A stretch of DNA of 64,000 nucleotides from IMG/VR virus record IMGVR_UViG_3300034103_001746, positions 85,533 through 149,532 of that record; one strand, 5' to 3'. The translations under genes and the position numbers were made by a program. A model generated the notes under the pieces. The model did not search any database. It was not told the DNA's origin and saw nothing but the letters and a program-made list of their open reading frames with translations. This document shows positions 11,390 to 62,177 of the stretch, in pieces. Positions within the stretch are counted from its first letter, which is position 1, and every line of letters starts with the position of its first letter. The stretch is from a virus.

Positions 11390-13056
11390 TTAATGCTATC
11401 CTTCATATGTGCATAATTAATATAATCTTCTGGATTTAATTTATCTAAATTATTTTTAGCCGTTTGTCCTAAATTATGGTTTTTAATAATAGTATTTAAT
11501 ATATCTAGTGCCTTTTGAACACTGTAACCTTCCGTACTTAATCCTTGAGTAATAAAACCATAATCTAAATCCCTAATGATATTTAGCATAATAGTTGATG
11601 ATCCAATTTGATGGTTAGGAAGATGTTTTGACACCAAGAAGGTTATTAGATCATATGAATTATTAATATTTTCTGGAATATCTGTAATTTCTTCCATTAA
11701 TGGAATTACTTGATCCCATTTACCTTGCAAACCAGTCAGTTGAATATTATCGAAATAATTTTCCCATTTTTTAGCTATGTCATCCCAATTATAATATTTT
11801 TCTGTTAATTTTCTAGTCTCAAATCTTTTTTGTTCCTTTAGTGGCTCAGGCATCTTATAAAAAGATTCAAGCGTTTGTATTAAATCTTTATTATCTGGAA
11901 AAACCCTAATGGCTCTGGTTTCTAATTCTTTGAAATATTGTCCAACCTTAATTGGGTAACCATTAACTTTCCTTACTACATCGCTCATAGCGCTATAGTC
12001 TATGGATGCAACTGGGACGCCGCAAGCAGAAGCTTCTACCTGTGGCATACCAAAACCTTCGCAAATAGCATATTGTACATAAATATCAAAAAGATTCATC
12101 ACCATGGCCAAGTTATTGGATGAAACACCATTACTAACATTTGGCATACTACAAGCCTTCTGTCCACATCTTGGACAAACTGCTACTGGATGTTGAAATA
12201 ATGATGGATAAAAATATCCACAGCTTTTGCAAGAATAAGTGAACAGCACCCTGTTTCCGATTTTGTATTCTTTTAATAGTTGCGGTATATCCCAACCAGC
12301 ATCCGGATAGCTTGTATGTAAATATAAATACAGGTTTTTGCCTAATTTATGATTGTTGGTTTGTTCACATTTTTCTAGTAGCTTTTTGATTGCGTAAAAT
12401 AAGTCTGGTATTAGTTTACGCTTTTGATTCCTCATTACTGACCCAACAATAAATAAGTCTTCGCTGAGATTAAACATCTTACGAAGTCCTTTTCTATCAG
12501 TTGTGGGTACGAATGTTTGTAGATCTACACCTGGAGATGTTGTGTCAATATAATTAATTTTGCCATTACTTTGTTTGATTAGGGTATCTCTACCAAAATC
12601 AGAATAAGTAAATATCGCATCCGCATGTAAAAACGTATCTATCCAATCCTCTTGTTGTGGTTCAGAATCGACTGTTGGCATTAGTACCCAGTGAAAAAAT
12701 GGTCTTAGTGGAGAGAATTGTTGATAAGAATTCATCCAATAATCTCTAACATCAAAAACCACATCTGGTTGAAAATCTAATAGAACTCTTTCAAATCTCC
12801 ATCGACCAAACTGATTTTCAGCAGAAGATTGGTATTCTGAATATCTGGGGTCTTTTTCATCAACGGCTCCAGCATAATATTTCCAATGAATATCTACGTC
12901 TTTTGGGTCGTTAGTTTTTCCATAACAAGCAAGTTCAGCTATGTCATACTTGCCTGTGGCATGAAGTCTCTTTAATATTTCTTTAGCATAAGTACCGAAT
13001 CCTGAGCTTAAAAAGCTAGCCTCTGATACCATTAAGATTTTAAGTTTTTTATTCAT
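11386..13056 (-). CDS. Glycosyltransferase group 1 with inserted zinc ribbon
   Basis: A 556-residue protein, longer than usual. The N-terminal Rossmann domain starts with LMVSEASFLSSGFGTYA. The C-terminal donor domain has VQYAICEGFGMPQVEASACG, the E-x7-E signature of GT4-type enzymes. Between them, Cys276/279 and Cys294/297 form a zinc-ribbon insertion, which is unusual in this family. A ~100-residue helical tail follows the catalytic domain. It is the first gene of the glycosyltransferase block, 65 bases downstream of SSB and separated from it by a terminator, so it is probably reached by read-through or an unseen promoter. Confidence 0.85.
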   Translation of the reverse strand: MNKKLKILMVSEASFLSSGFGTYAKEILKRLHATGKYDIAELACYGKTNDPKDVDIHWKYYAGAVDEKDPRYSEYQSSAENQFGRWRFERVLLDFQPDVVFDVRDYWMNSYQQFSPLRPFFHWVLMPTVDSEPQQEDWIDTFLHADAIFTYSDFGRDTLIKQSNGKINYIDTTSPGVDLQTFVPTTDRKGLRKMFNLSEDLFIVGSVMRNQKRKLIPDLFYAIKKLLEKCEQTNNHKLGKNLYLYLHTSYPDAGWDIPQLLKEYKIGNRVLFTYSCKSCGYFYPSLFQHPVAVCPRCGQKACSMPNVSNGVSSNNLAMVMNLFDIYVQYAICEGFGMPQVEASACGVPVASIDYSAMSDVVRKVNGYPIKVGQYFKELETRAIRVFPDNKDLIQTLESFYKMPEPLKEQKRFETRKLTEKYYNWDDIAKKWENYFDNIQLTGLQGKWDQVIPLMEEITDIPENINNSYDLITFLVSKHLPNHQIGSSTIMLNIIRDLDYGFITQGLSTEGYSVQKALDILNTIIKNHNLGQTAKNNLDKLNPEDYINYAHMKDSIK

Positions 13057-13070
13057 ATTAGATGATAAGA

Positions 13071-13103
13071 GAAAAAAGATAGGGGGTTTTTACACCCCCA
13101 TCT
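13071..13103 (-). terminator. Intrinsic terminator downstream of SSB
   Basis: On the minus strand an AGAT-GGGGG arm pairs with CCCCC-(T)-ATCT around an eight-base loop and is followed by six T residues. It lies about 20 bases after the SSB stop codon, so it should end or attenuate the strong SSB transcript before the glycosyltransferase genes. Confidence 0.85.
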
Positions 13104-13121
13104 TTAAGAATGAAAAATATA

Positions 13122-13499
13122 TCAGAACGCTACGGTTTCGTTCTGTTCGGACTTATTCTTCTTTGATAGCTTGGTAATCTTGGAGAAGTTGTTTACGCGT
13201 ACCTTTAGAGTACTATGCTTTACTCCATCCTTTTCCCAAGAATCATTACGCAATGAGCCTTCAACTAGCACTAGATCGCCCTTCTTAAAAGAATCAGCGA
13301 TGATCTCAGCGCCTGTGTCCCAGGCTTCACATGAAACGAATGTTGTTACCTTATCCTTTTCACCATTAGACTTGGTATACTCACGAGAAACAGCAACTGT
13401 AAAGTTAACAACAGTAGTCTGCCTTCCGCCAGTGTTAACAACACGAACTTCTGGATCACGAGCTAAATTTCCTCTTAAGATATTAATATTCATATTCAA
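13122..13499 (-). CDS. ssb: Single-stranded DNA-binding protein
   Basis: A 125-residue OB-fold protein of the bacterial SSB family: INILRGNLARDPEVR at the start, VNFTVAVSREY, FVSCEAWDTGAE, and KKGDLVLVEGSLRNDSW. The C-terminal tail (ETVAF) keeps the terminal Phe but lacks the strongly acidic DDDIPF-type tip, so partner binding may differ from that of bacterial SSB. It coats ssDNA during phage replication. A consensus promoter lies just upstream and a strong terminator just downstream, so it is likely an abundant, largely monocistronic transcript. Confidence 0.95.
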   Translation of the reverse strand: MNMNINILRGNLARDPEVRVVNTGGRQTTVVNFTVAVSREYTKSNGEKDKVTTFVSCEAWDTGAEIIADSFKKGDLVLVEGSLRNDSWEKDGVKHSTLKVRVNNFSKITKLSKKNKSEQNETVAF

Positions 13500-13531
13500 A
13501 CTCCTTGATGTGAAAAACCAAATTACAAACT

Positions 13532-13559
13532 ATTATAGAAGGTCTCTGATCGGTGTCAA
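13532..13559 (-). promoter_or_regulatory. Perfect sigma-70 consensus promoter of ssb
   Basis: On the minus strand TTGACA (13554-13559) and TATAAT (13532-13537) are separated by exactly 16 bases, ending about 32 bases upstream of the ssb start codon, which has a good AAGGAG site. The -35 overlaps the stop of the polymerase C-half gene. Both hexamers match the bacterial consensus fully, so host RNA polymerase should use it early. Confidence 0.9.
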
Positions 13560-15181
13560 GATTTTGCGATGTAAGCCTTTTCCACTATGAGCGAATCCCC
13601 GGTCTTTGACCTATTACCTTTCACTATGATAACATTGCTTCCAAACAACAAGTTTCTATAGCTTCTGTATTGCTCTGGAAAAAATACAACAGAATCTAAC
13701 ACACCAGAACCATCTGTTAATGTTACAAATGCCATCTCTAAACCGGGATTCTTTCCTGTTTTGGTTTTGGTAACACTAATATTGTCTACCTCTCCACATA
13801 ATATGATATTATCTTTATTGAGACTATTTTTAAATTCTTTACAAGTTGTATTAGTCATACTAATATCATACATATCAACCTTGGAACACGTTATACTACA
13901 ACCGAGCGTTTCTTCCTCTGTATCCGCTATCCATTCTGGATTATCTTCTAAAGCATATGGAGGTCTCTTTAAAGTATTAAGTAAGTTTTGTACTACAGTT
14001 ACTCTGTTTTTATTGAGTTTGCCTATTTTCATTAATCCTATAAAAGCATCTTCTAAATTAGAATAAGAATATATATTTGTTAATATCGTTCCGATTTCTT
14101 TCTTTGTCAATTCATTTATTAAACTCAATTCAAACAACATAGAGTTTCTGGTCTTTTTTAAAAAAGACAAGGCCCCGCTCTGAATTAAAGATTTTGCTGC
14201 TGTAGAATTAATGTCTGATAGTATCATTAAAGCTGTTTGAATCCAGTTCAATTTATTTAAATCTATTTGCTTACTAGATATAATATTATTTAGTTTTTCA
14301 TATACAGCATTTCCAAATCCCTTGATATCTGTTAAGCCAAAATAAATTTGATTATTTTTTAAGATAAATAACTTGTTCAGATTACGAATGTCTGGGGTGC
14401 TAACAGTTATATCCATCTCGCTAGCATTTTGTACTAATTCTTTAATTTCTGCTTTTGGATCAATTTTATCTTTAGCAAATCGTAAATAAGATGCGAAAAA
14501 TATTTTTGGGAAATGCGATTTGGTATACGCTGATAAATATGCATTAATAGCATAGCTAACAGCATGTGACTTATTAAAAGAATATCTTTGAGACTTTTCA
14601 ATCCAACCAAAGATCTGCTCTGCCTCATCTTCTGTGACTAAATTTAGATTTTTAGCACCCAATAAAAATTTTGATTTAACTTTAGCCATTTCTTCTGGCT
14701 TTTTCTTTCCAATAGCTTTTCTTAACATATCGGCTTCTTGTAGATTAAAACCAGCGATAGTTTTAGCGATCTCCATCGCTTGTTCCTGATAAATCATTTC
14801 GCCATATGTTGTTTTCAAAATGGGTTCTAGAGATGGATGAAAATTATCTATAGTTTCTTGTCCATTTTTTTTATCTATATAGTGATTAGTCACACTCTTT
14901 CCATCACGTATAGCCTCTAAGCATCCGGGTCTAAGAATACTGATTAGGGCAGATAATTCTTCAATATTGGAAGGTTTTAATTTTTTAGCAATAGATCTTC
15001 CTAGTCTAGACTCCAACTGAAAACAACCTTTTGTGTTTCCATCAGATATTAAATCCCATGTTTTATAACATTCCAAATTGATAGTTTCAATACGGGGATC
15101 AAAGGACAATTTCATATCCTCTCCTTCGCCCGAAATAATATTAAAAGAACATCCGCACGGATATTGAAATTTTTTAGACAT
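13556..15181 (-). CDS. dnaE: DNA polymerase III alpha subunit, C-terminal half
   Basis: A 541-residue protein matching the fingers and C-terminal part of DnaE. Key segments are GCFQLESRLGR, ILRPGCLEA, YQEQAMEIAKTIAGF, MLRKAIGKKKPEEMAK and YSFNKSHAVSYA, then a helical region and an OB-fold near the end (VTVTKTKTGKN to VIIVKGN). The palm with the catalytic aspartates is in a separate gene (16050-17921), so the two halves must associate to work. The start has a short Cys motif (PCGCSF) I recall from other phage DnaE proteins. It overlaps the exonuclease gene by eight bases. No intein motifs are seen at the break. Confidence 0.92.
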   Translation of the reverse strand: MSKKFQYPCGCSFNIISGEGEDMKLSFDPRIETINLECYKTWDLISDGNTKGCFQLESRLGRSIAKKLKPSNIEELSALISILRPGCLEAIRDGKSVTNHYIDKKNGQETIDNFHPSLEPILKTTYGEMIYQEQAMEIAKTIAGFNLQEADMLRKAIGKKKPEEMAKVKSKFLLGAKNLNLVTEDEAEQIFGWIEKSQRYSFNKSHAVSYAINAYLSAYTKSHFPKIFFASYLRFAKDKIDPKAEIKELVQNASEMDITVSTPDIRNLNKLFILKNNQIYFGLTDIKGFGNAVYEKLNNIISSKQIDLNKLNWIQTALMILSDINSTAAKSLIQSGALSFLKKTRNSMLFELSLINELTKKEIGTILTNIYSYSNLEDAFIGLMKIGKLNKNRVTVVQNLLNTLKRPPYALEDNPEWIADTEEETLGCSITCSKVDMYDISMTNTTCKEFKNSLNKDNIILCGEVDNISVTKTKTGKNPGLEMAFVTLTDGSGVLDSVVFFPEQYRSYRNLLFGSNVIIVKGNRSKTGDSLIVEKAYIAKS

Positions 15182-15869
15182 TGCCTGAAAAAGAATCCTT
15201 AAACTTAATTTTTTGAGCCAAATTTCTGTGTAGTTTTAGAAACCTAATAAGAATTTCTGCACAATCTTGTACGTCTTTTAGAGCGTCGTGAGCGCCTTCT
15301 TTCGATAATCCAACATAATCCCTCACAGAATCAAGAGTATAGCTCTTTAAGTCATTATTGTATTCAAACCAATAAAAAATTAAATTCATTATATCAACTA
15401 CGTCTCTTGGGAAAAAGACATTAGAGGTACCTTCTTTATTTGTATTTCCATATTTACCACTAAGCCTATCTATAATTTTGAGATCAAATCTATTGATATT
15501 ATATCCAGCAGCAATTGGGGCTGTAAATTGACTCTTTTTAGAAGACCTAGTATGATACATATCTAGATAATTTACAAACAGTTTCCAAGATTGTTCTTGA
15601 GAAGGGTAGTTTTTCCATTGGCTTAATATATCGTCTTTAGAACAACTTTTAACTTTTGCATGAAAATCCAGAATGTCTGTGGTATAAGTATAGTTATCAT
15701 CATTCGCCAAAACTTCCGGCTTAAAGAAAATATTAAATTCGGATTTTGGTATAACCTCTAATTTGATCGGGTCGATCATGACAGCAGCTATTTGTACAGG
15801 ACTGCATTGCTTAGGATCGGATCCATCTGTTTCAAAATCGAATACGCAAATTTTGTTATAATTAATCAT
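15174..15869 (-). CDS. DEDDh 3'-5' exonuclease (DnaQ-like proofreader)
   Basis: A 231-residue protein with the full DEDDh set: VFDFETDG (Asp11, Glu13), GYNINRFD, and GAHDALKDVQ with the final His and Asp. It should remove mispaired 3' ends, as the epsilon subunit does for Pol III. It is encoded between the two halves of the polymerase and overlaps its neighbours by eight bases on each side, which supports a role as the dedicated proofreading subunit. RNase T-like or structural use is a less likely alternative. Confidence 0.92.
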   Translation of the reverse strand: MINYNKICVFDFETDGSDPKQCSPVQIAAVMIDPIKLEVIPKSEFNIFFKPEVLANDDNYTYTTDILDFHAKVKSCSKDDILSQWKNYPSQEQSWKLFVNYLDMYHTRSSKKSQFTAPIAAGYNINRFDLKIIDRLSGKYGNTNKEGTSNVFFPRDVVDIMNLIFYWFEYNNDLKSYTLDSVRDYVGLSKEGAHDALKDVQDCAEILIRFLKLHRNLAQKIKFKDSFSGNV

Positions 15870-16044
15870 TAACTTCTACTTCTGTAATTGGTATGACTTG
15901 AATTTTTGTGTTACTATCATTAGCTTGTGATGCATTATTAACATGGCAACAACTAACTCTTTCATCAGGTATCTTCACATATTCGATACCGTTTAGAGTA
16001 AATTTGTCACCAACCTGAACATCAATAAACTTTTTTAAAGACAT
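15862..16044 (-). CDS. Small conserved phage protein within the polymerase operon
   Basis: About 60 residues from the ATG at 16044, which has an AGGAG/AGGTG site just before it; a GTG at 16053 overlapping the polymerase stop is the alternative. The pattern VGDKFTLNGIEYVKI suggests a small beta-barrel; similar short proteins occur in many phages without known function. A related pattern appears in the 84-residue protein at 55903-56157. It is translationally coupled to the polymerase N-half and the exonuclease. Confidence 0.75.
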   Translation of the reverse strand: MSLKKFIDVQVGDKFTLNGIEYVKIPDERVSCCHVNNASQANDSNTKIQVIPITEVEVND

Positions 16045-16049
16045 ATTAA

Positions 16050-17921
16050 TCACCTATCTCCTAGAATATCTTGAATTGTCATAATTTTATCCAACATTGC
16101 TACTCCTAATATATCAAATTTAATAATACCAATTGATTCTAAATCTTGCATTTCCATTCCCGCTATTAATTGCTTATTCTTAGAGTCATAAACCATTGGA
16201 CAGGCTTCGTTCAATGGTAATGCACTGATAGCAATACCGGCCGCGTGTTTGGATTGATTCGATTTAGTACCCTCTAATCTAATAGCTTGTTCGAAGCGTT
16301 TGGCAAGTGGTCCTTGTAGTTCATTTTTTTCATCAATAAAGCACCACTCTTTGAGTTTGTCCGGATTATTCTCCAAAGCCCATCTAATAATAGACGCTTC
16401 TCCGGTTTCTTCTTTCATTTCTTGTAAATCGTCTGCTATTTTGGCTTCGTCCGGAATATTTTTAGTAATTTTATTCATTTCATCAAAAGAAATATTGCCA
16501 TATACTCTTAATACGTCCTTCAAGGCTCCTCGACCCTTAATAGTATTAAATGTAATCATTTGAGAAACTTTATCGTGACCATATTTGTTTTTAATATATT
16601 CAATAATAGTTTCTCTCTTATTGATCGGTACGTCCACATCAATATCTGGCATGGATATATGGTCTTTTGAGTTACGACCAGCATTATAAAATCGATCAAA
16701 CATTAGATTATATTTCATCGGATCAATACTGGTAATACCAATAAGATAAGATACTAAACAACCGGCAGCACTACCTCTACCCGGACCCGGAAGCCAAGAG
16801 TTATGTCTTACATAGTTAACAATATCTTGTACTATCAAAAAGTAGCTACTAAGTCCAGCTCCTTGTAGAACTTCTAGTTCATATTTAATTCTATCTACAT
16901 ATTGTTGTTGATCGTCTTTATTAATAGTGTTTGCTATTTTGTCTCTCCAGCCATCTCTACACAGTTGTCTTAGATATTCGTCTGGATTATATCCATCAGG
17001 ACAAGCAAACGGAGGAAGCCTAGGCTTACTCAAAACATTATATTCTTCACACAAACCAGCAACAAAATTGGTATTTTCTATTTCTTCTTCTGTATGCAGA
17101 CTATTCATTTCTTCTTGTGACAACAAATGAAAGTTATCAGAAGTAAAAAAACAAGAAAGAGGAACTTCTTCGTCATTGCTAATTTTTCTACTAATTTCTG
17201 GAAATGTTGTCTTTAAATTGTTACACAGTAGGATTCTTTGGTCATTAGCATCTTCTTTACGACAATAATGAGCATCTGGTGTGCAAACCACTTTAGTATT
17301 AGTGAGTTTTCCCAATTCTCTGACCACACCGGTTAAATCTTTTTGGATCGGGGTGTTGTTCATATCCATTAACTGAGATTCTAAAAAGAAATTATCTTTA
17401 CCAAAGATATCTTTCAATATACCTATTTGCTCTAGTCCTACATTTTTCCAATCCTTAATTAATGCGTTATTTTGAACTATCTTGTCCGCTAATACAGAGC
17501 CTAAATGACCACAAATGCCTATAATGTCGCCATCGCAAAATCTAGCAACATGATCTAGACTTAATCTGGGTTTATGATAATAAAAATCTGGCCTATTAGA
17601 TTCAGACACCAACTGAATAAGTTTATTCCAACCCTTTAAGTTTTTTGCCAAAACAAGAAAATGACTTAAGTCTTTATTAGACTTGTCTTGTATTGTGGGG
17701 TCTTGATCACAAACATAAATCTCGCAACCTAGTATGGGTTTGATGCCCTTAGACTTCATTTCTGTATAAAACTTAATAGCCCCAGCTATATTTCCGTGAT
17801 CTGTTAAGGCACAAGCAGATGCCCCAATTTCTTGACATCTTTCTGATATTTGTGATGGTTTTGATAGTCCGTCCAACAAACTAAACATTGAGTGACAATG
17901 TAAAGGTATATAATTCCTCAT
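16050..17921 (-). CDS. dnaE: DNA polymerase III alpha subunit, N-terminal half (PHP and palm)
   Basis: A 623-residue protein. Residues 1-~270 are a PHP domain with metal-type residues (HCH at 8-10, TDHGN at 40-44, GCE at 65-67, DAH at 216-218), so phosphoesterase activity may be retained. The palm follows, with LPGPGRGSAAG and catalytic PDIDVD (Asp426, Asp428) and the third aspartate in KFDILGV (Asp603). The protein ends 20 residues later, where bacterial DnaE continues into the fingers. The remainder is encoded by 13556-15181. It starts within four bases of the nuclease gene upstream. Confidence 0.93.
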   Translation of the reverse strand: MRNYIPLHCHSMFSLLDGLSKPSQISERCQEIGASACALTDHGNIAGAIKFYTEMKSKGIKPILGCEIYVCDQDPTIQDKSNKDLSHFLVLAKNLKGWNKLIQLVSESNRPDFYYHKPRLSLDHVARFCDGDIIGICGHLGSVLADKIVQNNALIKDWKNVGLEQIGILKDIFGKDNFFLESQLMDMNNTPIQKDLTGVVRELGKLTNTKVVCTPDAHYCRKEDANDQRILLCNNLKTTFPEISRKISNDEEVPLSCFFTSDNFHLLSQEEMNSLHTEEEIENTNFVAGLCEEYNVLSKPRLPPFACPDGYNPDEYLRQLCRDGWRDKIANTINKDDQQQYVDRIKYELEVLQGAGLSSYFLIVQDIVNYVRHNSWLPGPGRGSAAGCLVSYLIGITSIDPMKYNLMFDRFYNAGRNSKDHISMPDIDVDVPINKRETIIEYIKNKYGHDKVSQMITFNTIKGRGALKDVLRVYGNISFDEMNKITKNIPDEAKIADDLQEMKEETGEASIIRWALENNPDKLKEWCFIDEKNELQGPLAKRFEQAIRLEGTKSNQSKHAAGIAISALPLNEACPMVYDSKNKQLIAGMEMQDLESIGIIKFDILGVAMLDKIMTIQDILGDR

Positions 17922-18916
17922 TCTACGCTTCCTGGTGCTTTGTACTTACCAACAGTATAGCCGGGAGTCGTGTACTCGTCAACAACGTTTTTTATACCTT
18001 TCATCTCTATATCGTGTCGAATTTGTTCACATTTAGTCATAAATTTATCTTTTTGTGTTACCTGACCATCTCTATATTCTATTATTGGTAACAACTTAGA
18101 GTTTTCAAAAGTTGTTTTTCCAAAATGGCATAATTTAGTACATTTCCATGTTTTGGTTAGTTTCGGGATTTGAGCATTTTTAATTGCTTCAAATTTTTTA
18201 CGAAGCATTTCTTCTGTAGATAATAAATCATCTTTATCATAGCAAATAGTAAATGGTCCACCATCATTAATAAAATTAATAGAGACCATTACATGATCAA
18301 TATCAGGATATAACTGACTCACAGCATAATGATATATTTTAAGCTGAGGATCATTTTGTAACTTCTCATGAGTTTTTTCCTCACCAGTTGCCCAATCTAA
18401 TCTTCTTCCTGTTTTCCAGTCTATAATTTCTATAGTATTATTATCTACTTTTGTTATTAAGTCTATTGTACCTTTAATTGCTAAATTACCCTCTATAATT
18501 TCTCCTTGATGATTATATTTAAATTTTGCCCACTCTCTTTTGATTTCTATATCAAAATGTTGTTCGGGCTGTAGGATATTTCTATTTCTAGGATCAAACA
18601 TTCCATTATTACTGTCTAATGCCTTATGTACCCAAGCGTGACAATCTTTATAGTCCTTTAGTTCCCATGCGTGGTGAGTAAATTGGCTAGTATAGTAATT
18701 ATAGACTTTCTCAATAATAGTGTTCAAATTATATTTGTTTGTACTAACTTTTCCAATAACATCGTCTATTATGTCTTTTTCTTTATTTTGGTCGGCCAAT
18801 TTGATACAGGCTAGAATTTCTAGAACTTTATGTACTATTGTTCCTTTGTCTGCTTTTTTATTCGAGGGTGATCTCATTCCAAGAACATACTCTATAAAAT
18901 ATTGCTGTTCGCACAT
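17918..18916 (-). CDS. RecB/Cas4-like PD-(D/E)XK exonuclease
   Basis: A 332-residue protein from the first ATG. It has KGTIVHKVLE (the family His), a later IKGTIDLI and IEIIDWKTGRR, the D-x(n)-ExK-like (DWK) core of RecB-family nucleases, then a Q-x-x-x-Y segment (QLKIYHYAV). A Cys at the start (CEQQY) and Cys residues late in the protein (CTKLC) fit an AddB/Cas4-type iron-sulfur site. The reading frame is open for ~20 more codons upstream and encodes YLRSSSYGTHS, which looks like part of the fold; with no ATG there, an ATT/ATA start near 18955-18961, coupled to the upstream stop and a GAGGGA site, is likely. Confidence 0.87.
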   Translation of the reverse strand: MCEQQYFIEYVLGMRSPSNKKADKGTIVHKVLEILACIKLADQNKEKDIIDDVIGKVSTNKYNLNTIIEKVYNYYTSQFTHHAWELKDYKDCHAWVHKALDSNNGMFDPRNRNILQPEQHFDIEIKREWAKFKYNHQGEIIEGNLAIKGTIDLITKVDNNTIEIIDWKTGRRLDWATGEEKTHEKLQNDPQLKIYHYAVSQLYPDIDHVMVSINFINDGGPFTICYDKDDLLSTEEMLRKKFEAIKNAQIPKLTKTWKCTKLCHFGKTTFENSKLLPIIEYRDGQVTQKDKFMTKCEQIRHDIEMKGIKNVVDEYTTPGYTVGKYKAPGSVE

Positions 18917-35427: not shown

Positions 35428-38400
35428 TTAACAGCCACAACCGCTACAGGCGCCCACTACCGTTCCATAATTACACGAGCTTTCATCAAATGTAGCATCG
35501 CCATTCACCGTACCATAATTATATGATCCATTAGAAAAAGTTGCATTGCCATTCACCGTACCATAATAATTATTAGATGCATTGAAGGTGGCATTAGTAT
35601 TAATAGTACCATAATTAGTAGAGTTTATAAATAATCCACTATTAACAGAACCATTATTTGAAGAAGTTATAAAAATACCAACGTTAGTTACTGATCCATT
35701 GTTAGAACTATAAGATGTAAAAGTGCCAGTTTGAACAACTGTACCTTCGTTTGTACTAGTATTAAAAGTGACATTACCACCAATATTATTGTAATTAACA
35801 GAATAAGAATTAAAAGAGGCGTTTCCGTTAATATAGCCATAATTACTAGCATTATTAAAAGATATATCTGTGCCTAAATTACCATAATTTGCACAACCGG
35901 GTCCAAAGGTCACTGTTCCAGTAATAGTCCCAGAGTTAATGGCCTGATTAGTAAAAGAATGACCACTACCATTTAATGTACCAAAATTAATAGCATTATT
36001 AAAAGATGAAGTTTTATGAATAACACCCCTATTAGAAGCAGGAGGAATTACGATATATGTTGATGTATCATTATTCCATATATAATTATATGATCCATTA
36101 AAAGAAGCAGTACCGGATATATGTCCATTATTTATACTTTGGTCTTGAAATGATAAAGAAACCCCGCTGAATGGTATATCTGAATTATTAATAGATTCAT
36201 TATAAAAAGTTCCTCCAGATATTTTAGCATTATTAACACTATAATTATAAAAAGATGTTGATGGTAACAAACCGGTAGCATTATTAATTCCTGAATTTCT
36301 AAATGTAGATACTGATGAGTACGATCCTCTATTTATTGCATTATTATAAAATGTTCCTTGATTGATTCGCCCATAATTAATGCTGTTATTATAAAAGTTA
36401 ACATTACCTGCTATTCCAGAAAAATTATTCTGACTAGAGTTATAAAAAGTGGCGTCTTGTATTACCCCATTATTTTTAGAGTCTGAATAAAAAGTGCTGT
36501 TACCCAAACAAACACCACTATAATCATTAGATGACGATTCACGAAACACAACTACGCAAGATAGCCCTGAAGACTGATTCATAGAATTACCAGAAAATTC
36601 TACAGAAGATGTTACATTACCGATATTAATACTATTATCAAAAAAATAAGCTATACTGCCTGTGCCATGATTTTTACTGTTATTATAAAATTTACTATTA
36701 TAGAAAGAACCTTTATTAGTACTAGAATTTTGATAAAATCCGTATGTTACAGATCCGGAGTTGGTTGAAGAATTATTAAAATATCCACTATACGATATAA
36801 AACTAGTATTAATTGACAAGTCATTAAAAATTCCGTTTGATATATTGCTGTAGTTAAAAGTAGCGTTTTGAAAGTATCCTGTAGTACTAATAGTCCCAGA
36901 GTTTATAGTATTATTTTGAAATATTCCTTTGTTTATAGTTCCTTGATTTACGCTATTGTCTTTAAAAATCAAATATCCACTACTTGAAACATTAATATTA
37001 GCTGCGTTCTTTGCAAACTTTTGAAATGTAATATCGAATATAGATATATTCGCATTATTTGTGGAGGTATCAGAAAAAGTAGCTTTACCAGTTAAGGGAC
37101 CACTGTTAACACCAGACACAGTAAAAACTGTTACACCACTCACGCTACCGTTATTATTAGAGTTATTAAAAGCATGAGTACCCGATATGATACTACCATT
37201 ATTAGTAGAATTATTAAAATTTGTACTTTTAGTAATAGTGCTATTATTAATGCTTTGATTATTAAAATCTGCTGACCCATCAATACTGCCATTATTTGTA
37301 CCACTACTAAAAATACATTGACCACTTACACTAGCATTATTTGTAGCATTAACAAATTGACCATATCCTTGAATGATCCCACCGTTTTGGCCACTAATCA
37401 TATACAGATTTCCAATAATTCTTCCAGCGTTATTAGATTTATAAAACTTGACTGAGCCGGATATAGATCCATTATTAGAAGAGTCTATAAATAAACTATT
37501 TCCATAAATAATATTGTTATTCAGAGAAGAGCTTCCACTAAAAATAGATAAAGCCCCTGAAATAATGCCATTATTTACAGAGTTTAAAAAAAGACTTGTG
37601 GTATTAATAATACCATTATTGACTGCTGAACCGCTAAAAATAGTGTTTCCATATAATTTACCATTTACTGAGTTAATAGAATTAGATATAAATAATGTTT
37701 CAGAAAAACAATATCCATTATTTGTAGAAGCATTTTCAAATCTAGCCTCATTTGTTATAGTCCCATAATTAATAGAATTCAATAAAGTAGTTTTAGCAGA
37801 TATGGTGCCATAATTATTTGACGAGGATAATAAGGCCGATGGGGCCGTGAGTGAGCACCCAGACGCTATATTAGAATCAAAAAAATATGCTCCGGGTGGA
37901 ATACTTTTTAAAAAATTTGGATCATCACTTCCATTATCGGTCTGTGCGGAATTAGGGTATATCGAAGAACTTTCCGAGCTTCTAATATTAATATTAATTA
38001 ATATTCCAGAAATATTTAACTCTTGATTATATGTTTTAAAAGAGCTATTTTGAAAAAATAATCTTTTATTAAGATTAATATTTAATAAAGGAGATATTAA
38101 GCCTTGAGAACCTATTATACCATTGGTAACAAGTAGATTATTAGTTGTAATATTTCCAAAAGAGAAAGGAACCCTATCCTCCGGCCGATTTGTATCTGCA
38201 CCAAATATTATTAGAGTGTTTTTTACTTTGATAGATTTAAGACCCAACAATCCGATGGAAGATTTACTAAAACATGAATTCGTTTGTGCCATAACACTAG
38301 CGTCAATAGTAATTACGCTAGGTTTACTAATCACAATATCTGTTTTATTACTGGGAAGATTTTTACTATTAATTTCTAAAGAGCCATCCTCAAACCACTT

Positions 38401-38442
38401 AGATAAGTCGCACCAGACATTTCTTGAAAGAGGATTGCTCAT
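35428..38442 (-). CDS. Long Asn/Gly-rich repeat protein, probable beta-solenoid fibre or adhesin
   Basis: A 1,004-residue protein. Residues 1-~190 are non-repetitive. The remaining ~800 residues are dozens of degenerate ~20-residue units of the form N-N-G-x-I-x-G-x-x-x-F-x-x-S-x-N (for example NNGSISGSVKF and NNGSIDGSADF). The regular alternation of small polar turns and hydrophobic residues predicts a parallel beta-helix. The tail ends GACSGCGC, which could be cross-linked or metal-bound. The gene starts by sharing one base with the stop of the papain-like gene. A virion fibre or surface adhesin is the best guess. Confidence 0.85.
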   Translation of the reverse strand: MSNPLSRNVWCDLSKWFEDGSLEINSKNLPSNKTDIVISKPSVITIDASVMAQTNSCFSKSSIGLLGLKSIKVKNTLIIFGADTNRPEDRVPFSFGNITTNNLLVTNGIIGSQGLISPLLNINLNKRLFFQNSSFKTYNQELNISGILININIRSSESSSIYPNSAQTDNGSDDPNFLKSIPPGAYFFDSNIASGCSLTAPSALLSSSNNYGTISAKTTLLNSINYGTITNEARFENASTNNGYCFSETLFISNSINSVNGKLYGNTIFSGSAVNNGIINTTSLFLNSVNNGIISGALSIFSGSSSLNNNIIYGNSLFIDSSNNGSISGSVKFYKSNNAGRIIGNLYMISGQNGGIIQGYGQFVNATNNASVSGQCIFSSGTNNGSIDGSADFNNQSINNSTITKSTNFNNSTNNGSIISGTHAFNNSNNNGSVSGVTVFTVSGVNSGPLTGKATFSDTSTNNANISIFDITFQKFAKNAANINVSSSGYLIFKDNSVNQGTINKGIFQNNTINSGTISTTGYFQNATFNYSNISNGIFNDLSINTSFISYSGYFNNSSTNSGSVTYGFYQNSSTNKGSFYNSKFYNNSKNHGTGSIAYFFDNSINIGNVTSSVEFSGNSMNQSSGLSCVVVFRESSSNDYSGVCLGNSTFYSDSKNNGVIQDATFYNSSQNNFSGIAGNVNFYNNSINYGRINQGTFYNNAINRGSYSSVSTFRNSGINNATGLLPSTSFYNYSVNNAKISGGTFYNESINNSDIPFSGVSLSFQDQSINNGHISGTASFNGSYNYIWNNDTSTYIVIPPASNRGVIHKTSSFNNAINFGTLNGSGHSFTNQAINSGTITGTVTFGPGCANYGNLGTDISFNNASNYGYINGNASFNSYSVNYNNIGGNVTFNTSTNEGTVVQTGTFTSYSSNNGSVTNVGIFITSSNNGSVNSGLFINSTNYGTINTNATFNASNNYYGTVNGNATFSNGSYNYGTVNGDATFDESSCNYGTVVGACSGCGC

Positions 38443-43949: not shown

Positions 43950-45407
43950 ATTTTTTTCCTTATTATAGTTGGATATTTATTATTACACCAAGTATGGTAA
44001 GATAAATATTGTGCTAATATTTTATAATAATTCTTCTAATGGTCCCATTTGATTCAAATCTTTAAGTCCAGGATCTGACATTCCAAACAAATCTCGTGGA
44101 GCGCCAGCTAGATGCAAAAATGTTAAGTACATATTAGCAATTGTTCTATGATTAGGTTGTCCATAGCCTGGATAATCTATATAACGTCCACTTTTTAATT
44201 TACCACCCATATCTCCAATTACTACCATCGGCCACTCCCAACACCGACTGTGATGAGCTTCAGCGGCATCACTTAGATAAACGATCACGGTGTTGTCGAG
44301 CATCGTACCGTCCCCTTCTTTTATTGCTTCAAGTTTCTTACATAACCCCGCAATCAGATCAAAATGGAAGTGACGTATCATATCGTACAACTCCAACTGT
44401 GACATTCCGTTCTCTCCGCCTCCGTGACCCATATGATGCTTGCCCATCTTGAGTCCAAGGCCAGAGAAATTAATATCAAAATCCTGTTCGCCAGCCGCCG
44501 ACGAGATTGTTACCACATTTGTTAATCCACTAATCAATGAGGCTGCTGCTATATCAAATTGAGCATCTAATCGGTCTGTTTCAATAACACTATTATATTT
44601 ATTATTTACTACTGGACCCTTTTCTCTTAAAGTATGTTTTATATCGTTTAGTTTGCTCTGTCTATTACTTAATGCTTCAAAAGTTTCTATATAGGCTGTT
44701 AATTGTTGTCGTTCTGGGCCAGCAAGATTAGCTTCTGCTATTTTTATATCATTTTTAAGAAAATCTAAAAGATTATTTTTTGCTATAAATTCTTGTTTTG
44801 CATTACCTTCGGCAATGCTTCCAAATAAATTATTATATGCTTGTTGTGGTTGACATATAATTGGCATTAATTTAGCTTTATCCCACGCCGAAATGCTATA
44901 TACCACATTATTGTCGAGTTTTTTAGAAATACCAAGTCCAACAAATGGGAAAATACTAGGAAGAGCTTTAGCAAGAGCGCAGTCGATAGTTTCGCTAATA
45001 GATGTTGCTCCTTTGCGACCTCCAGGCACAACTCCTAAAGCTCCATGATCATTAGAATGTCCACCTCCGCATACGCGACCAGATAATCCATTAACAATTG
45101 TTAATTTATTTTGCCATTTAGCTACTGGCTCTAGAGACATTGGTAGTTTTTTCCCTGTCAATGATATGTTAATAAGCTCTGGAGGACCATTAAAAGGTTC
45201 TTCTGGACGCTCAGGGCGTATAATGCCTTCTGGTGGCATTTGTTGAGGTTTTACTCCATTGCTTTCAACAACAAAAACAAATCGTTTTGCTGTAATTGGT
45301 AAACCAGCCGCTTCTGCTTTTAACTTATTAAGTATAGGATATAAAAACGTAGCTGCTGCTGATAAACCAAGAGCTTTAAGCGTGTTTCTGCGCTGTTCCA
45401 AAAACAT
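43841..45407 (-). other. See DUF1552 entry; region boundary note
   Basis: This span includes the 5' part of the 70-residue gene, a 72-base gap (43950-44021) with AACTATAAT, and the DUF1552 gene. The gap shows no hairpin terminator on the minus strand; transcription of DUF1552 could run into the small gene. Confidence 0.3.
44022..45407 (-). CDS. DUF1552 protein with Tat signal
   Basis: A 461-residue protein. RRNTLKALGLSAAATFLYP (Arg6-Arg7) is a twin-arginine export signal. The body follows DUF1552: FVFVVESNGV, LTIVNGLSG, GGGHSNDHGALG, TIDCALAK, LDAQFDIAAASL, and the C-terminal IVYLSDAAEAHHSRC and MVVIGDMGGKLKSGRY. DUF1552 is abundant in Planctomycetota and a few other phyla, linked with secreted or cell-wall proteins, function unsettled. 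A full-length, exported copy in a phage is unusual and suggests capture from the host. Confidence 0.92.
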   Translation of the reverse strand: MFLEQRRNTLKALGLSAAATFLYPILNKLKAEAAGLPITAKRFVFVVESNGVKPQQMPPEGIIRPERPEEPFNGPPELINISLTGKKLPMSLEPVAKWQNKLTIVNGLSGRVCGGGHSNDHGALGVVPGGRKGATSISETIDCALAKALPSIFPFVGLGISKKLDNNVVYSISAWDKAKLMPIICQPQQAYNNLFGSIAEGNAKQEFIAKNNLLDFLKNDIKIAEANLAGPERQQLTAYIETFEALSNRQSKLNDIKHTLREKGPVVNNKYNSVIETDRLDAQFDIAAASLISGLTNVVTISSAAGEQDFDINFSGLGLKMGKHHMGHGGGENGMSQLELYDMIRHFHFDLIAGLCKKLEAIKEGDGTMLDNTVIVYLSDAAEAHHSRCWEWPMVVIGDMGGKLKSGRYIDYPGYGQPNHRTIANMYLTFLHLAGAPRDLFGMSDPGLKDLNQMGPLEELL

Positions 45408-57406: not shown

Positions 57407-58414
57407 TTACGATAATACTTTAGATGCTATTAAACAACCTTTAGAAACAGCATGTAAAGGATCTTCTGCGTGTCTTACTTCTTTTATATTTAGTGGAAAA
57501 CTATTTTCTTCTAATTTTTTACGAAATAAATCTATGTATCCATCTGCCTGCGAAGTGCCGCCCGCCACAACAATAGATAGAGGATTTTTAAATTTGGGTA
57601 AAGCTTTATGTAATGTTAATGCTGAAGCTAATTGTTTAGTAGTATAATCTATTAGTCTATCATAGTATGCTGATACCGCAGCAAGCACCGGATTATCGTT
57701 CGGTTCGCCTATTTTAAAATTACCCGCCTCCTTCTCTGCCTGAACAACACTGTCCTGTTCTCCGGTCGCTACAGCACTCATACGATCAATCCAATCGCCA
57801 GATTTGGTCGTACTAAATACAACTGTTGGTTCGCCATTGAGCATAACACAAACATTAGTCATTCCAGCACCACAGCTAACTGCTATTCCTGTATAATCAT
57901 CATTCTCTAATTCAGCATAGCATAATGCTTCTGCTTCATTCACAGATCTAGCATCATAACCACATTCTGATAGAATGGTTTTAACCACATCCTCATGATA
58001 TCCAACATCAAAATCTTCATCTTCTTGATCTACTGGTTGTGCTGGAACACAAAAAACAAGTTTTTCACCGGGTTCCGATGCCTGCCCGACTACTTCTTTT
58101 AAGATAAATGCTAAAATTCTTTTTGCATTTTTTTCTTTTGCTGATACGACACCCTTATGCATCGGTCTTTTTGCTGTGTCGTTTCTTTCTATGGCTTTTT
58201 CTATAGCGTCCTTACCCAATAATATAAAAGAATTATCTGACTCATCTTTTATAAAAACTTTTCCTGATAAGCCTTTTTCTATCATTTTTGTGGCTACGGG
58301 TGTTGTTGGCTTAATTATATAGAAGGCATCTCTAAAGTCTTTATAGATAACGCCGCTCTGAGAATCTTCTGATAGAACAATGAAACTTGTTCCAACGTCT
58401 AAACCTTTAGCCAT
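57407..58414 (-). CDS. Actin-fold (ParM/MreB/Hsp70-like) ATPase
   Basis: A 335-residue protein with phosphate-1 loop GLDVGTSF (4-11), a phosphate-2-like SCGAGMTNV (180-188) and adenosine-loop VVAGGTSQADG near residue 285. The usual Asp of phosphate-2 (DxG) is Ser180, so ATP hydrolysis may be altered. SGDWIDRM follows, as in related actin-like proteins. It may form filaments for genome positioning or partition. It is followed by a membrane protein and an exported thioredoxin upstream. Confidence 0.83.
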   Translation of the reverse strand: MAKGLDVGTSFIVLSEDSQSGVIYKDFRDAFYIIKPTTPVATKMIEKGLSGKVFIKDESDNSFILLGKDAIEKAIERNDTAKRPMHKGVVSAKEKNAKRILAFILKEVVGQASEPGEKLVFCVPAQPVDQEDEDFDVGYHEDVVKTILSECGYDARSVNEAEALCYAELENDDYTGIAVSCGAGMTNVCVMLNGEPTVVFSTTKSGDWIDRMSAVATGEQDSVVQAEKEAGNFKIGEPNDNPVLAAVSAYYDRLIDYTTKQLASALTLHKALPKFKNPLSIVVAGGTSQADGYIDLFRKKLEENSFPLNIKEVRHAEDPLHAVSKGCLIASKVLS

Positions 58415-58719: not shown

Positions 58720-59101
58720 CGTTTATCCATGTTAAATATTTGACCTTACCCTTATATCCAACATAGATTGATACTTCAACTTTATCTTTTATGATCCTTG
58801 AGTCTGGCAAACTTTTAACTCCATATTCTTTAGCAAGATCTTTATCTTTGTCTATATCTATAGAACATACAATGAAATCATCTAATGCTTTGGCAGCATC
58901 TTCATCCTCTAAATCTTTATGAAGAACACCACAGTATCGACACCAATCTGCCCCGAATATTACTAGCACAGGTTTCTTTGAAGATTCTGATAATGCAATA
59001 GCATCTACCAGATTATTCATGAAATATGCGTTTTCTCCATAAGCCCTATCGCTAATCATGCCTAGCATAATGACAAATAGTAATAGGGTTTTCTTTATCA
59101 T
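58700..59101 (-). CDS. Exported thioredoxin-like protein
   Basis: A 133-residue protein with a signal peptide (LLLFVIMLGMISDRAYG), the active-site WCRYC (Trp53-Cys57) and the cis-Pro region KSLPDSRI. It should be a periplasmic disulfide oxidoreductase. Several phage proteins here are Cys-rich, so a role in their folding is plausible. It overlaps ruvB by four bases. Confidence 0.88.
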   Translation of the reverse strand: MIKKTLLLFVIMLGMISDRAYGENAYFMNNLVDAIALSESSKKPVLVIFGADWCRYCGVLHKDLEDEDAAKALDDFIVCSIDIDKDKDLAKEYGVKSLPDSRIIKDKVEVSIYVGYKGKVKYLTWINDARQHK

Positions 59102-59994
59102 ATGTCACCAATGACTCTACCTTGAGACGTTCTTCGTGCAAAACCTTTTCTAACGAGATAGGGTTCGATGCTATTCTCAATGGTATCTATAGCGATTCCG
59201 GTCATGGACGATATAGACTTAAGACCTAAAGCACTTCCTCTCGACTTCTTTAATACACTAATATACATTCTATCATATATATCTAGACCATTTTTATCTA
59301 TACCTTGAATATTAAAGATCTTATCAATATCATTTTCTTCTGGATGACAAGACTTATAATTTCTATACCATTGAAGTCTCGCGTTAAGAATACGCGGAGT
59401 TCCTTTGCTTCTTTTTGCTATTTCCAATAGATCATCTTCTGAAACAATTAGTCCCAACTTCTCGGCGTTTGACCCTGCTAGTTTAGCAAGTTCATCGTCT
59501 TGATAAAAGGACAGATGCTCTTTAATTTGAAAACGGTCATAAAATGGCTGACTTAATGATCCACCACTAGTTGTTGCTCCCACAACAGTAAACATTGGTA
59601 GATCTATTGTTTCTGGCTTATCTTCTACACTTATACTGAGAACAAAATCTTCCATAACTGGATATAGAAATTCTTCCACTAACTTTGGTAGTCTATGGAT
59701 TTCATCAATAAATAATACTGATCTTGGAGCTATGCTCATTAAATATGGCAATATACTCTTAACATTACGAATATTAGCCGCATTAGTGGTATATAAATTA
59801 ACGTTAAGTTCGTTTGCTATAGCACTCGCTATTGTTGTTTTACCAAGGCCGGGAGGCCCGTCAATTAAAACATGGGGCATCACCGCCTCTGTGTTTTTAC
59901 ACCCGGTCACAGAGACTCTCAGACGCTCTATAACGTCACTTTGGCCGATCACATCATCAAAGGTGGTAGGTCGCAAGTTGTTTTTCATAATCAT
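59098..59994 (-). CDS. ruvB: RuvB-like Holliday junction helicase
   Basis: A 298-residue AAA+ motor: GPPGLGKTT (46-54), FIDEIHRL (Asp97/Glu98 Walker B), GATTSGGSLSQPFYDRF (sensor and arginine-finger region) and a winged-helix C-terminus with GLKSISSMTG and EPYLVRKGFARRTSQGR. It is shorter than bacterial RuvB (~330-340). It should drive branch migration in phage recombination. The neighbouring gene supplies a RuvA domain III-like partner. Confidence 0.92.
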   Translation of the reverse strand: MIMKNNLRPTTFDDVIGQSDVIERLRVSVTGCKNTEAVMPHVLIDGPPGLGKTTIASAIANELNVNLYTTNAANIRNVKSILPYLMSIAPRSVLFIDEIHRLPKLVEEFLYPVMEDFVLSISVEDKPETIDLPMFTVVGATTSGGSLSQPFYDRFQIKEHLSFYQDDELAKLAGSNAEKLGLIVSEDDLLEIAKRSKGTPRILNARLQWYRNYKSCHPEENDIDKIFNIQGIDKNGLDIYDRMYISVLKKSRGSALGLKSISSMTGIAIDTIENSIEPYLVRKGFARRTSQGRVIGDI

Positions 59995-61316: not shown

Positions 61317-62177
61317 TCAATACTGATCGTCGTAATCCTCGTCATCATAATCTACATCTTCAGACTCATCATCAAACTGATCCCAGTATGATTCATCAAG
61401 ATCATAATTATCTTCATCATAATCTTCATCTTCATCGTAACTAAAATCAGATGAATACAGAGGCTTGAGCAATTCGCCTTGATACTCTCCGACTACTTCA
61501 TATCGGCAAGTACGAAGTTTCTCACAATTACAATCACTTGGAACACTTACAACATCACGCGGATTAATCTTGACAATCACAATACGGTCGCCAGATTCTA
61601 CAGACCCATAACCGGCCACATAATTCAATGCTCCAGCATGAAGTCCATCAGAGCATCCTCTTGCACGATCATCGTCAACTTTTGCTCGCTGCATTTTAAC
61701 AACTTGACCAACACTATTATCAAACGTTCCACGATACTTATCCTTAAAATCACCCCTAACTGCCTTATAGGCCAGAAAGTGACCATCCTCAGTAATTGGC
61801 AGATGTTCATGCTCAAGGAAATCATAAAGTTCCTTCTGACTCTGCATACTAGGATTTTCCATAAGATTATGAAGGAAATTAGTAAGAGGCTGAAAAGGTA
61901 GACCCTTACTCATAAACTCCAGAATACGCTTGCTAATACTACCATGAACAACTTCACCCTCATAAGTAACCTGACCATTCTTGATTTCAACAAGACCATC
62001 ACTAAATGTAGCAATAGCCTTTTCCACATCAACAATTTCTAGCAACTCATCAGCGGTTGCTGTTGGCAAACGCTCAACAATCATCTTGTAATTGATATGA
62101 TCTGGCAAAACCTGGTAACTCTTGTTATTAAGAACAAGCGTCAAATTACCATCAACAAACATAAACGGAACAGACAT
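61317..62177 (-). CDS. rIIB: rIIB-like protein
   Basis: A 286-residue protein with the rIIB pattern: HLPITEDGHFLAYKAVRGDFKD, a later DDDRARGCSDGLHAGALNYV and IVIVKINPRDVVSVPSDCNCEKLRTCRYEVVG (shown in parts). The end is a long Asp/Glu/Tyr-rich tail (DEDEDYDEDNYD). Together with rIIA it is a T4-type membrane-associated pair linked to phage exclusion and growth control. It lies 32 bases from rIIA. Confidence 0.86.
   Translation of the reverse strand: MSVPFMFVDGNLTLVLNNKSYQVLPDHINYKMIVERLPTATADELLEIVDVEKAIATFSDGLVEIKNGQVTYEGEVVHGSISKRILEFMSKGLPFQPLTNFLHNLMENPSMQSQKELYDFLEHEHLPITEDGHFLAYKAVRGDFKDKYRGTFDNSVGQVVKMQRAKVDDDRARGCSDGLHAGALNYVAGYGSVESGDRIVIVKINPRDVVSVPSDCNCEKLRTCRYEVVGEYQGELLKPLYSSDFSYDEDEDYDEDNYDLDESYWDQFDDESEDVDYDDEDYDDQY

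Follow-up and report, generated by a model that had tools for sequence, protein, structure and literature searches.

The window, a 64,000-nucleotide stretch of the IMG/VR virus record IMGVR_UViG_3300034103_001746 (positions 85,533 to 149,532), encodes a DnaE-type DNA polymerase III alpha subunit in two separate genes, here called the N-half and the C-half, with a DEDDh 3'-5' exonuclease gene and a small open reading frame (ORF) lying between them. The split was confirmed; it is old and fixed, and it is no sequencing accident. As the best overall explanation, it is very probable that the sole recognisable, presumably replicative, C-family polymerase of a large clade of uncultured phages is made as two proteins that assemble with each other. 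The four genes are arranged as follows.

16050 to 17921, minus strand: N-half of the DnaE-type DNA polymerase III alpha (PHP, palm with all three catalytic Asp, thumb), 623 aa
15862 to 16053, minus strand: small ORF, 63 aa, GTG start, overlapping the N-half by 4 bases
15174 to 15869, minus strand: DEDDh 3'-5' exonuclease, 231 aa, overlapping the small ORF by 8 bases
13556 to 15181, minus strand: C-half of the DNA polymerase III alpha (short CGC...C leader, fingers, helix-hairpin-helix, OB), 541 aa, overlapping the exonuclease gene by 8 bases

Across 13556-17921 the minus-strand order is thus N-half, small ORF, exonuclease and C-half, with overlaps of 4, 8 and 8 bases. The minus-strand ORFs and their Pfam and PHROG matches agreed with the coordinates, gene order and motif reading of an initial annotation of this DNA, which had also placed an exonuclease and a small protein between the halves with overlaps of 4-8 bases.

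In the N-half, Pfam detected a continuous PHP match at residues 7-183 (E 1.3e-35) and DNA_pol3_alpha over its whole length (1-260 of 260). The C-half matched DNA_pol3_finger, then HHH_6, and an OB domain slightly under the cut-off. These matches upheld the earlier description of the C-half as the fingers part; the earlier label of the N-half as palm was correct but too narrow, as the whole PHP domain and the thumb are also present. The best PHROG for both halves was the same unsplit family, phrog_405, of which positions 41-615 were covered by the N-half and 622-1068 by the C-half. Profile searches against PDB sequences placed the N-half on residues 6-637 and the C-half on residues 641-957 of Taq DnaE. 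Pfam, PDB profiles and structure matches together gave the domain order PHP, Pol III palm/thumb, fingers, helix-hairpin-helix and OB, divided over two proteins.

The catalytic motifs of the N-half were fully conserved. In 29 of 29 aligned N-halves, the aspartates of PDIDVD (D426, D428 and D430), residues G381-S384 of the GPGRGSAAG motif and the third catalytic Asp (D603, in KFDILG) were invariant. The initial annotation had identified Asp603 and KFDILG correctly, but the N-half does not end right after this residue, as had been stated; its end lies about 20 residues further on.

Structure models of each half alone were obtained with AlphaFold2, yielding a mean predicted local distance difference test (pLDDT) score of 91.4 and a predicted template modelling (pTM) score of 0.89 for the N-half, and 90.2 and 0.81, respectively, for the C-half. 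In Foldseek searches, both models matched the same DnaE chains. When superposed by VIA-align, the N-half covered residues 3-575 of the E. coli alpha structure 2hnh (Z 37.8, 566 aligned, root-mean-square deviation (rmsd) 3.5) and residues 5-638 of Taq DnaE 2hpi (Z 39.7, 561 aligned, rmsd 4.4). The C-half covered residues 576-910 of 2hnh (Z 17.4, 328 aligned, rmsd 3.3), 575-1074 of E. coli alpha 5fku (Z 20.9, 460 aligned, rmsd 8.4) and 639-1125 of 2hpi (Z 20.5, 437 aligned, rmsd 7.7). As modelled, the two halves together cover E. coli and Taq DnaE continuously across the break, and their contiguous alignment places the cut at the palm/fingers joint. The CGC leader of the C-half, comprising its first 15 to 22 residues, was without a partner in the E. 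coli and Taq structures.

The arrangement typical of PolC, with an exonuclease inserted in the PHP domain, was not observed: the PHP match is unbroken and the exonuclease is a gene of its own. The single polypeptide of the DnaE type was not observed either (0 of 102 clusters of relatives fused). As a single chain is common in the DnaE family and not defining, the two-protein state gives no ground to leave that family.

Relatives, designated by locus numbers (L), were collected by viral scans, each of which took the best 80 of the relatives matching short peptide patterns; the relatives existing per scan numbered 326 for the window C-half, 534 for an alignment led by L078, and 170 for L158. The family set comprised 234 loci (232 from IMG/VR and two genome contigs), including contigs fetched twice, which were removed by clustering at 95% identity to give 102 clusters. 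In the IMG/VR scan with the window C-half, all of the best 80 relatives carried the N-half, exonuclease and C-half separately and in the same order. The N-half and C-half were separate ORFs in 102 of 102 clusters and fused in none, and the exonuclease lay between them in every case, at most 30 nt upstream of the C-half in 94 clusters and at most 300 nt downstream of the N-half in 93. The initial annotation had proposed a search for the same break among phage DnaE relatives and had cautioned against a recent frameshift in one isolate or a continuous gene in a relative; the break was found in all 102 clusters, and neither exception appeared among the best 80 per scan.

The junction between exonuclease and C-half was compact in most loci. 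Among 71 loci with four intact ORFs, the gap was -16 nt in one, -8 in 33, -4 in 16, -1 in eight, +2 in six and of other sizes in seven, the two genes being joined by an overlap of 1-16 nt in 58 of them. The same gene order was observed in a second clade (L158, L237-L254 and L261), whose aligned C-halves were 40-46% identical to that of the window. No unsplit relative was present among the loci returned by scans from the window C-half, the L078-led alignment, L158, L264 and the L250 N-half; unsplit relatives may have escaped these scans if their identity to L158 lies under about 41% or if the peptide patterns did not match them. Sixteen loci outside the above counts (L324-L339) were also inspected: 11 showed an N-half and a C-half, never fused (L333 containing just the beginning of the C-half), and the five without a C-half match were four short fragments and L334, the sequence of which ends about 740 bases past the N-half.

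Among the matches listed in a scan of genome contigs, at least two, L157 and L158, were members of the family; the next matches listed were homologues of 29-38% identity, labelled cellular. L157 belongs to a metagenome-assembled genome labelled Flavobacteriales and L158 to one labelled Lokiarchaeota; both are probably misbinned viral contigs. As a control, the same procedure found N and C in one ORF in 77 of 78 genome-contig homologues, the exception (L222) being broken. IMG/VR phage DnaEs of other clades were unsplit in 8 of 8 cases. Ten phage regions from INPHARED gave six uninterrupted and four interrupted genes, in a set that was not random, some regions having been chosen for their interrupted-looking annotation.

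A tree of 53 sequences was built by a quick method, with the Shimodaira-Hasegawa-like approximate likelihood-ratio test (SH-aLRT) as its only support measure. Split members were entered as N and C joined; of 26 cellular loci chosen, L222 and L234 were dropped because their best N and C matches were not in one ORF, and of the ten annotated phage regions only the six uninterrupted ones were used. The 23 split members fell on one branch (SH-aLRT 100, stem length 1.42). The outgroup phages occupy long branches, and the sister of the split clade is not resolved by this tree. Because the split members form one clade, the split arose once, before the diversification of the sampled clade.

The ratio of non-synonymous to synonymous substitution rates (dN/dS) was 0.022-0.032 for the N-half, exonuclease and C-half when compared with L003, and 0.081-0.091 for the N-half and C-half when compared with L017. 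Other comparisons of these genes were saturated at synonymous sites, and the usable ones still had dS values of 1.5-2.3. Judged from these ratios, both halves are under purifying selection.

The following scheme would account for these observations. The genes are presumably co-transcribed and, as their overlaps suggest, may be translationally coupled. According to the confident models of each half alone, the N-half folds as a PHP-palm-thumb unit that contains the entire active site, and the C-half folds as a fingers-helix-hairpin-helix-OB unit. The two would pair at the palm/fingers interface to form one complete alpha subunit; non-covalent assembly is the most likely state of the two halves. 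The neighbouring DEDDh exonuclease most likely provides proofreading, by analogy with E. coli epsilon docking on PHP, and its place as a bound subunit of the N-C complex is proposed with less confidence than the assembly of the halves. The break may have originated from a homing element that inserted in conserved active-site codons and subsequently lost splicing, an origin suggested by relatives in which inteins and endonuclease-like ORFs occur within or next to the polymerase genes. It is fairly probable that the enzyme is an obligate two-protein replicase with an ancient, single-origin, intein-free palm/fingers division, some members being three-gene forms in which one joint is trans-spliced and the other made by binding.

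Several points weigh against this scheme. The AlphaFold2 models are of single chains, and the pairing of the halves is itself inferred. No beta clamp was found in 21 records (the window's own and 20 others), and one simple type of clamp motif, Qxx[LMI]F, occurred in 1 of 31 C-halves with no conserved column; with neither clamp nor conserved clamp motif found, processivity is left unexplained. The records are possibly fragments, so that the absence of another polymerase from them is not proof. No homing-element remnant was found at the break itself, and its origin by a homing element is a guess. The link of the exonuclease is loose, since in 8 of 102 clusters it stands 116-3900 nt away from the C-half, and in some of these other genes intervene. 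As the two are not always adjacent, gene order alone is no proof of a three-protein unit. The multi-subunit polymerase envisaged in the initial annotation is thus partly supported: the intein-free split was upheld, assembly of the halves is likely, and a stable place of the exonuclease in the complex is less certain (exonuclease and C-half being more than 30 nt apart in the same 8 of 102 clusters).

The alternative that survives best, although unlikely, is that the exonuclease is an independent phage nuclease and that proofreading is performed by an intact PHP metal site or is absent. The candidate positions of this metal site were kept in 26-29 of 29 N-halves. The occasional distance from the C-half also fits this alternative, as do the matches of the exonuclease to DnaQ/ExoI-type structures, which were only weak. 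Against it stand the position of the gene between the halves in every cluster, its proximity to the N-half in 93 of them, and its best PHROG match, phrog_192 'DNA polymerase exonuclease subunit'. Pfam assigned the protein to RNase_T, and the DEDDh motifs (D-E, D, H-x4-D) were all present: D129, H194 and D199 were conserved in 24 of 24 aligned rows, and D11 and E13 in 23, the remaining row starting late. A separate epsilon exonuclease is in general usual for DnaE-type enzymes (PMC3919608).

The small ORF gave only a weak family match (phrog_2183, E 0.003). Of 80 close loci, 78 have related ORFs (L074 and L075 do not), and a Cys-Cys pair is invariant in 16 of 16 aligned members. It is not universal among relatives: in the second clade, 11 of 20 loci (L158 included) have another type of small ORF, which resembles the one in L158, and some loci of both clades, such as L250 and L303, offer no space for a small ORF between N-half and exonuclease. 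Its dN/dS was 0.02 against L003, 0.16 against L005 and L017, and 0.46 against L007, which points to weaker constraint than on the N-half, exonuclease and C-half. The idea that the Cys-Cys pair shares a metal site with the CGC leader was considered and found unsupported: L311 has the small ORF but no leader, and in L298 and L303 the leader is present while no small-ORF match was found.

It is quite improbable that the halves are not a replicase, the genome being copied by the host polymerase and the halves serving other or separate roles such as repair or decoy. The absence of a clamp gene and of the simple clamp motif would agree with this, and the conserved polymerase residues make activity a prediction. 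On the other side, the genes lie in a replication block with DnaB-type helicase, primase, single-strand DNA binding protein (SSB) and RecA-like genes, and no other polymerase was found: searches for family A and B polymerases gave no match in the window's own record or in 20 records of 114-231 kb. In each of these 20 large records there was a single fingers domain and a single palm gene, the latter being divided in two in L286 and broken up by frameshifts in L308. The split polymerase is probably the replicase of the clade. A RuvB-like ATPase was also observed at 59098-59994 on the minus strand (RuvB_N and RuvB_C in Pfam); PHROGs rank it as a clamp loader, and it could be a clamp-loading or branch-migration factor.

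Covalent rejoining of the halves into one long chain, by a split intein, RNA trans-splicing or programmed frameshifting, is highly improbable. An intein at the break was rejected, as Pfam detected no intein domain in the N-half or C-half and the C-half opens at its own start codon with no intein part preceding it. The motif FNKSH, the cyanobacterial split-intein site, is uninterrupted in the window's C-half. No Rfam intron was found over 12900-18100, the sole match (STnc390) scoring far under the gathering score, though Rfam may miss an unfamiliar type. The initial annotation had likewise seen no intein motifs and had placed the break away from the cyanobacterial site. Fusion by programmed frameshifting was rejected because other genes intervene and the frame of the C-half varies among relatives: a frameshift would need to cross the exonuclease gene and often the small ORF too, and gaps of -8, -4, -1 and +2 put the C-half in differing frames.

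What speaks for covalent rejoining is that inteins occur elsewhere in the same gene family. In L018, L035, L038 and L302, a split intein introduces a further cut into the N-half at GPGRG/SAAG (around N residue 383), the first N piece ending with the N-terminal intein part and the second beginning with the C-terminal part. Three of these re-cut N-halves have the following positions.

Re-cut N-half with GPGRG/SAAG split intein: L018, 2993-6126
Re-cut N-half with GPGRG/SAAG split intein: L038, 3047-6154
Re-cut N-half with GPGRG/SAAG split intein: L302, 4900-6126

Pfam Intein_splicing scores were 34.2 and 16.1 bits for the L018 pieces and 32.4 for the first L038 piece, all below the cut-off of 35.8. 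In L018, L035 and L038 a nuclease-like reading frame, recognised by eye, lies between the N pieces, and in L036 and L053 the N-half is broken at the same site. The polymerase of the four split-intein phages would come from three genes. Contiguous inteins were found in the C-halves of L326 (5992-8391, at RPG/CLEA) and L338 (8824-11220, at about the same place), with Intein_splicing E-values of 2.1e-16 and 1.3e-10, respectively.

Other insertions were observed in the same region, so that this polymerase has been a repeated target of mobile elements. L281 has a LAGLIDADG ORF at N 429/435, and the N-half break is the same in L282, L284, L286, L287, L289 and L290. L030 and L264 contain inserted endonuclease-looking ORFs between N-half and exonuclease, with a similar layout in L031 and L265; in Pfam, the L264 ORF matched a treble-clef zinc finger only and the L030 ORF weak helix-turn-helix models only. 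L055 (3762-6850) and L058 (4794-6830) carry inserted genes in the space separating exonuclease from C-half, among them a thyX-like ORF (by eye) and a DUF1559 pseudopilin-like gene (by Pfam in L058, by eye in L055).

The view of the split as an artefact or as gene decay (through frameshift, assembly error or pseudogene formation) is hardly credible and is refuted by the relatives: apparent sequence error or decay was seen in a few of them (the N-halves of L308 and L006, the exonuclease of L064) and in one of the 78 cellular controls (L222), but the split occurs in every cluster, the catalytic residues are conserved, dN/dS is 0.02-0.09 for the three genes where computable, and one or two other genes occupy the gap.

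The two-protein polymerase was compared with known systems. Group 2.2 jumbo phages are described as having a minimal split Pol III alpha, in which two standalone proteins are proposed to reconstitute one enzyme; the genes lie far apart, only catalytic and template-binding parts are present while PHP and the other Pol III domains are lacking, the NTP-binding part is on one side of the cut and the Mg2+- and template-binding parts are on the other, and a family B polymerase occurs in the same phages (Iyer et al., 2021; PMC7824862). This is the closest published case found, sharing with the window a phage C-family polymerase in two standalone proteins. In contrast to it, the window enzyme keeps PHP and OB, its genes are close together and its cut lies after the third Asp; no family B match (PF00136) was found in the window's own record or in any of 20 others, which may be fragments.

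In cyanobacteria, the two halves of DnaE are rejoined by protein trans-splicing at FNKSH. The splitting of this enzyme by an intein is mentioned in PMC3919608. The likeness lies in a bacterial-type DnaE in two genes; in the window, however, FNKSH is intact and no intein is present at the break.

Fractured genes with split inteins were reportedly found in environmental phage DNA by Dassa et al. in 2009. The N pieces of L018, L035, L038 and L302, which bear the two intein halves, resemble these, but the intein cut is a second site of narrower spread, whereas the main break is intein-free. Polymerases in two polypeptides are also known from split archaeal family B enzymes and the split gp43 of T4-like Aeromonas phages, which belong to another polymerase family.

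Interrupted dnaE genes also occur in cultured phages, namely Alicyclobacillus phage KKP_3916 and Bacillus phages KLEB27-3 and Jayan, whose proteins are 23-37% identical to the split family. In KKP_3916 (L315, 1-5980), dnaE is divided into four pieces, and one of the breaks contains a group I intron. Another interruption follows the third catalytic Asp by 3 residues, which places it about 20 residues ahead of the window-type break, and the ORF located there carries homing-endonuclease-associated repeats (Pfam). Two endonuclease-like ORFs were recognised in this phage, one by Pfam and one by eye; the ORFs of its record are annotated as hypothetical proteins. These phages share with the window a dnaE gene in pieces, but two of the three carry endonuclease-type genes between the pieces; these genes and the group I intron make the interruptions look like mobile-element insertions. 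Furthermore, two PHROG families are shaped like dnaE pieces, phrog_13169 stopping at N residue 417 and phrog_12219 starting at N residue 424, which suggests that dnaE cut into separate proteins is already present among known phages. Their cut falls inside the palm, before PDIDVD, in contrast to that of the window at the palm/fingers joint.

No description of the window-type break was found in searches of the open-licence full text of PubMed Central, a corpus outside which most subscription papers and preprint servers lie, nor in what was consulted of PMC7824862, PMC6892783, PMC3919608 and PMC12926913. In a collection of cultured phages, neither half had a match at 60% identity, the best listed being 34.5%. 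The split polymerase is a real, conserved and apparently undescribed variant of a known enzyme family.

The neighbours of the polymerase genes in the window, as assigned by Pfam and PHROG, comprise SSB, PD-(D/E)XK nuclease, primase, DnaB-type helicase and RecA-like protein. Two of them flank the locus.

13122 to 13499, minus strand: SSB, downstream of the C-half (Pfam, PHROG and neighbour survey)
17918 to 18916, minus strand: PD-(D/E)XK nuclease, the next gene upstream, overlapping the N-half by 4 bases (Pfam and neighbour survey)

In the neighbourhoods of relatives, the nuclease gene was a frequent neighbour in both clades. The SSB gene was frequent in the window's own clade and was undetected beside the second.

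Elsewhere in the window, all on the minus strand, a DUF1552 protein is encoded at 44022-45407 (Pfam, E 4.2e-38). DUF1552 and DUF1559 are typical of Planctomycetota and Verrucomicrobiota, and the presence of DUF1552 in the window and DUF1559 in L055 and L058 gives a hint, and only a hint, of a Planctomycetota-like host. An actin-like protein at 57407-58414 matched Pfam Volactin (E 4.5e-63), a family name known from haloarchaea and surprising in a phage. The genes at 61317-62177 and 62210-63967 matched the lysis inhibitors RIIB (phrog_609, E 1.2e-73) and RIIA (phrog_612, E 1e-20), respectively. The 1004-aa protein encoded at 35428-38442 consists of short Asn/Gly/Ser-rich repeats and matched no family in Pfam or PHROGs; in appearance it is a repetitive surface or tail protein.

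Few bacterial enzymes are as conserved as the replicative C-family polymerases, and movement at their palm/fingers joint is expected as nucleotides are added. If the enzyme does assemble from two proteins, a covalent palm/fingers link would be dispensable in the only detectable polymerase of this clade. It would represent a natural split polymerase with a defined interface, useful for engineering, and would hint at how the invasion of catalytic motifs by mobile elements may yield a permanent new subunit. The split also provides a ready marker for this phage group.

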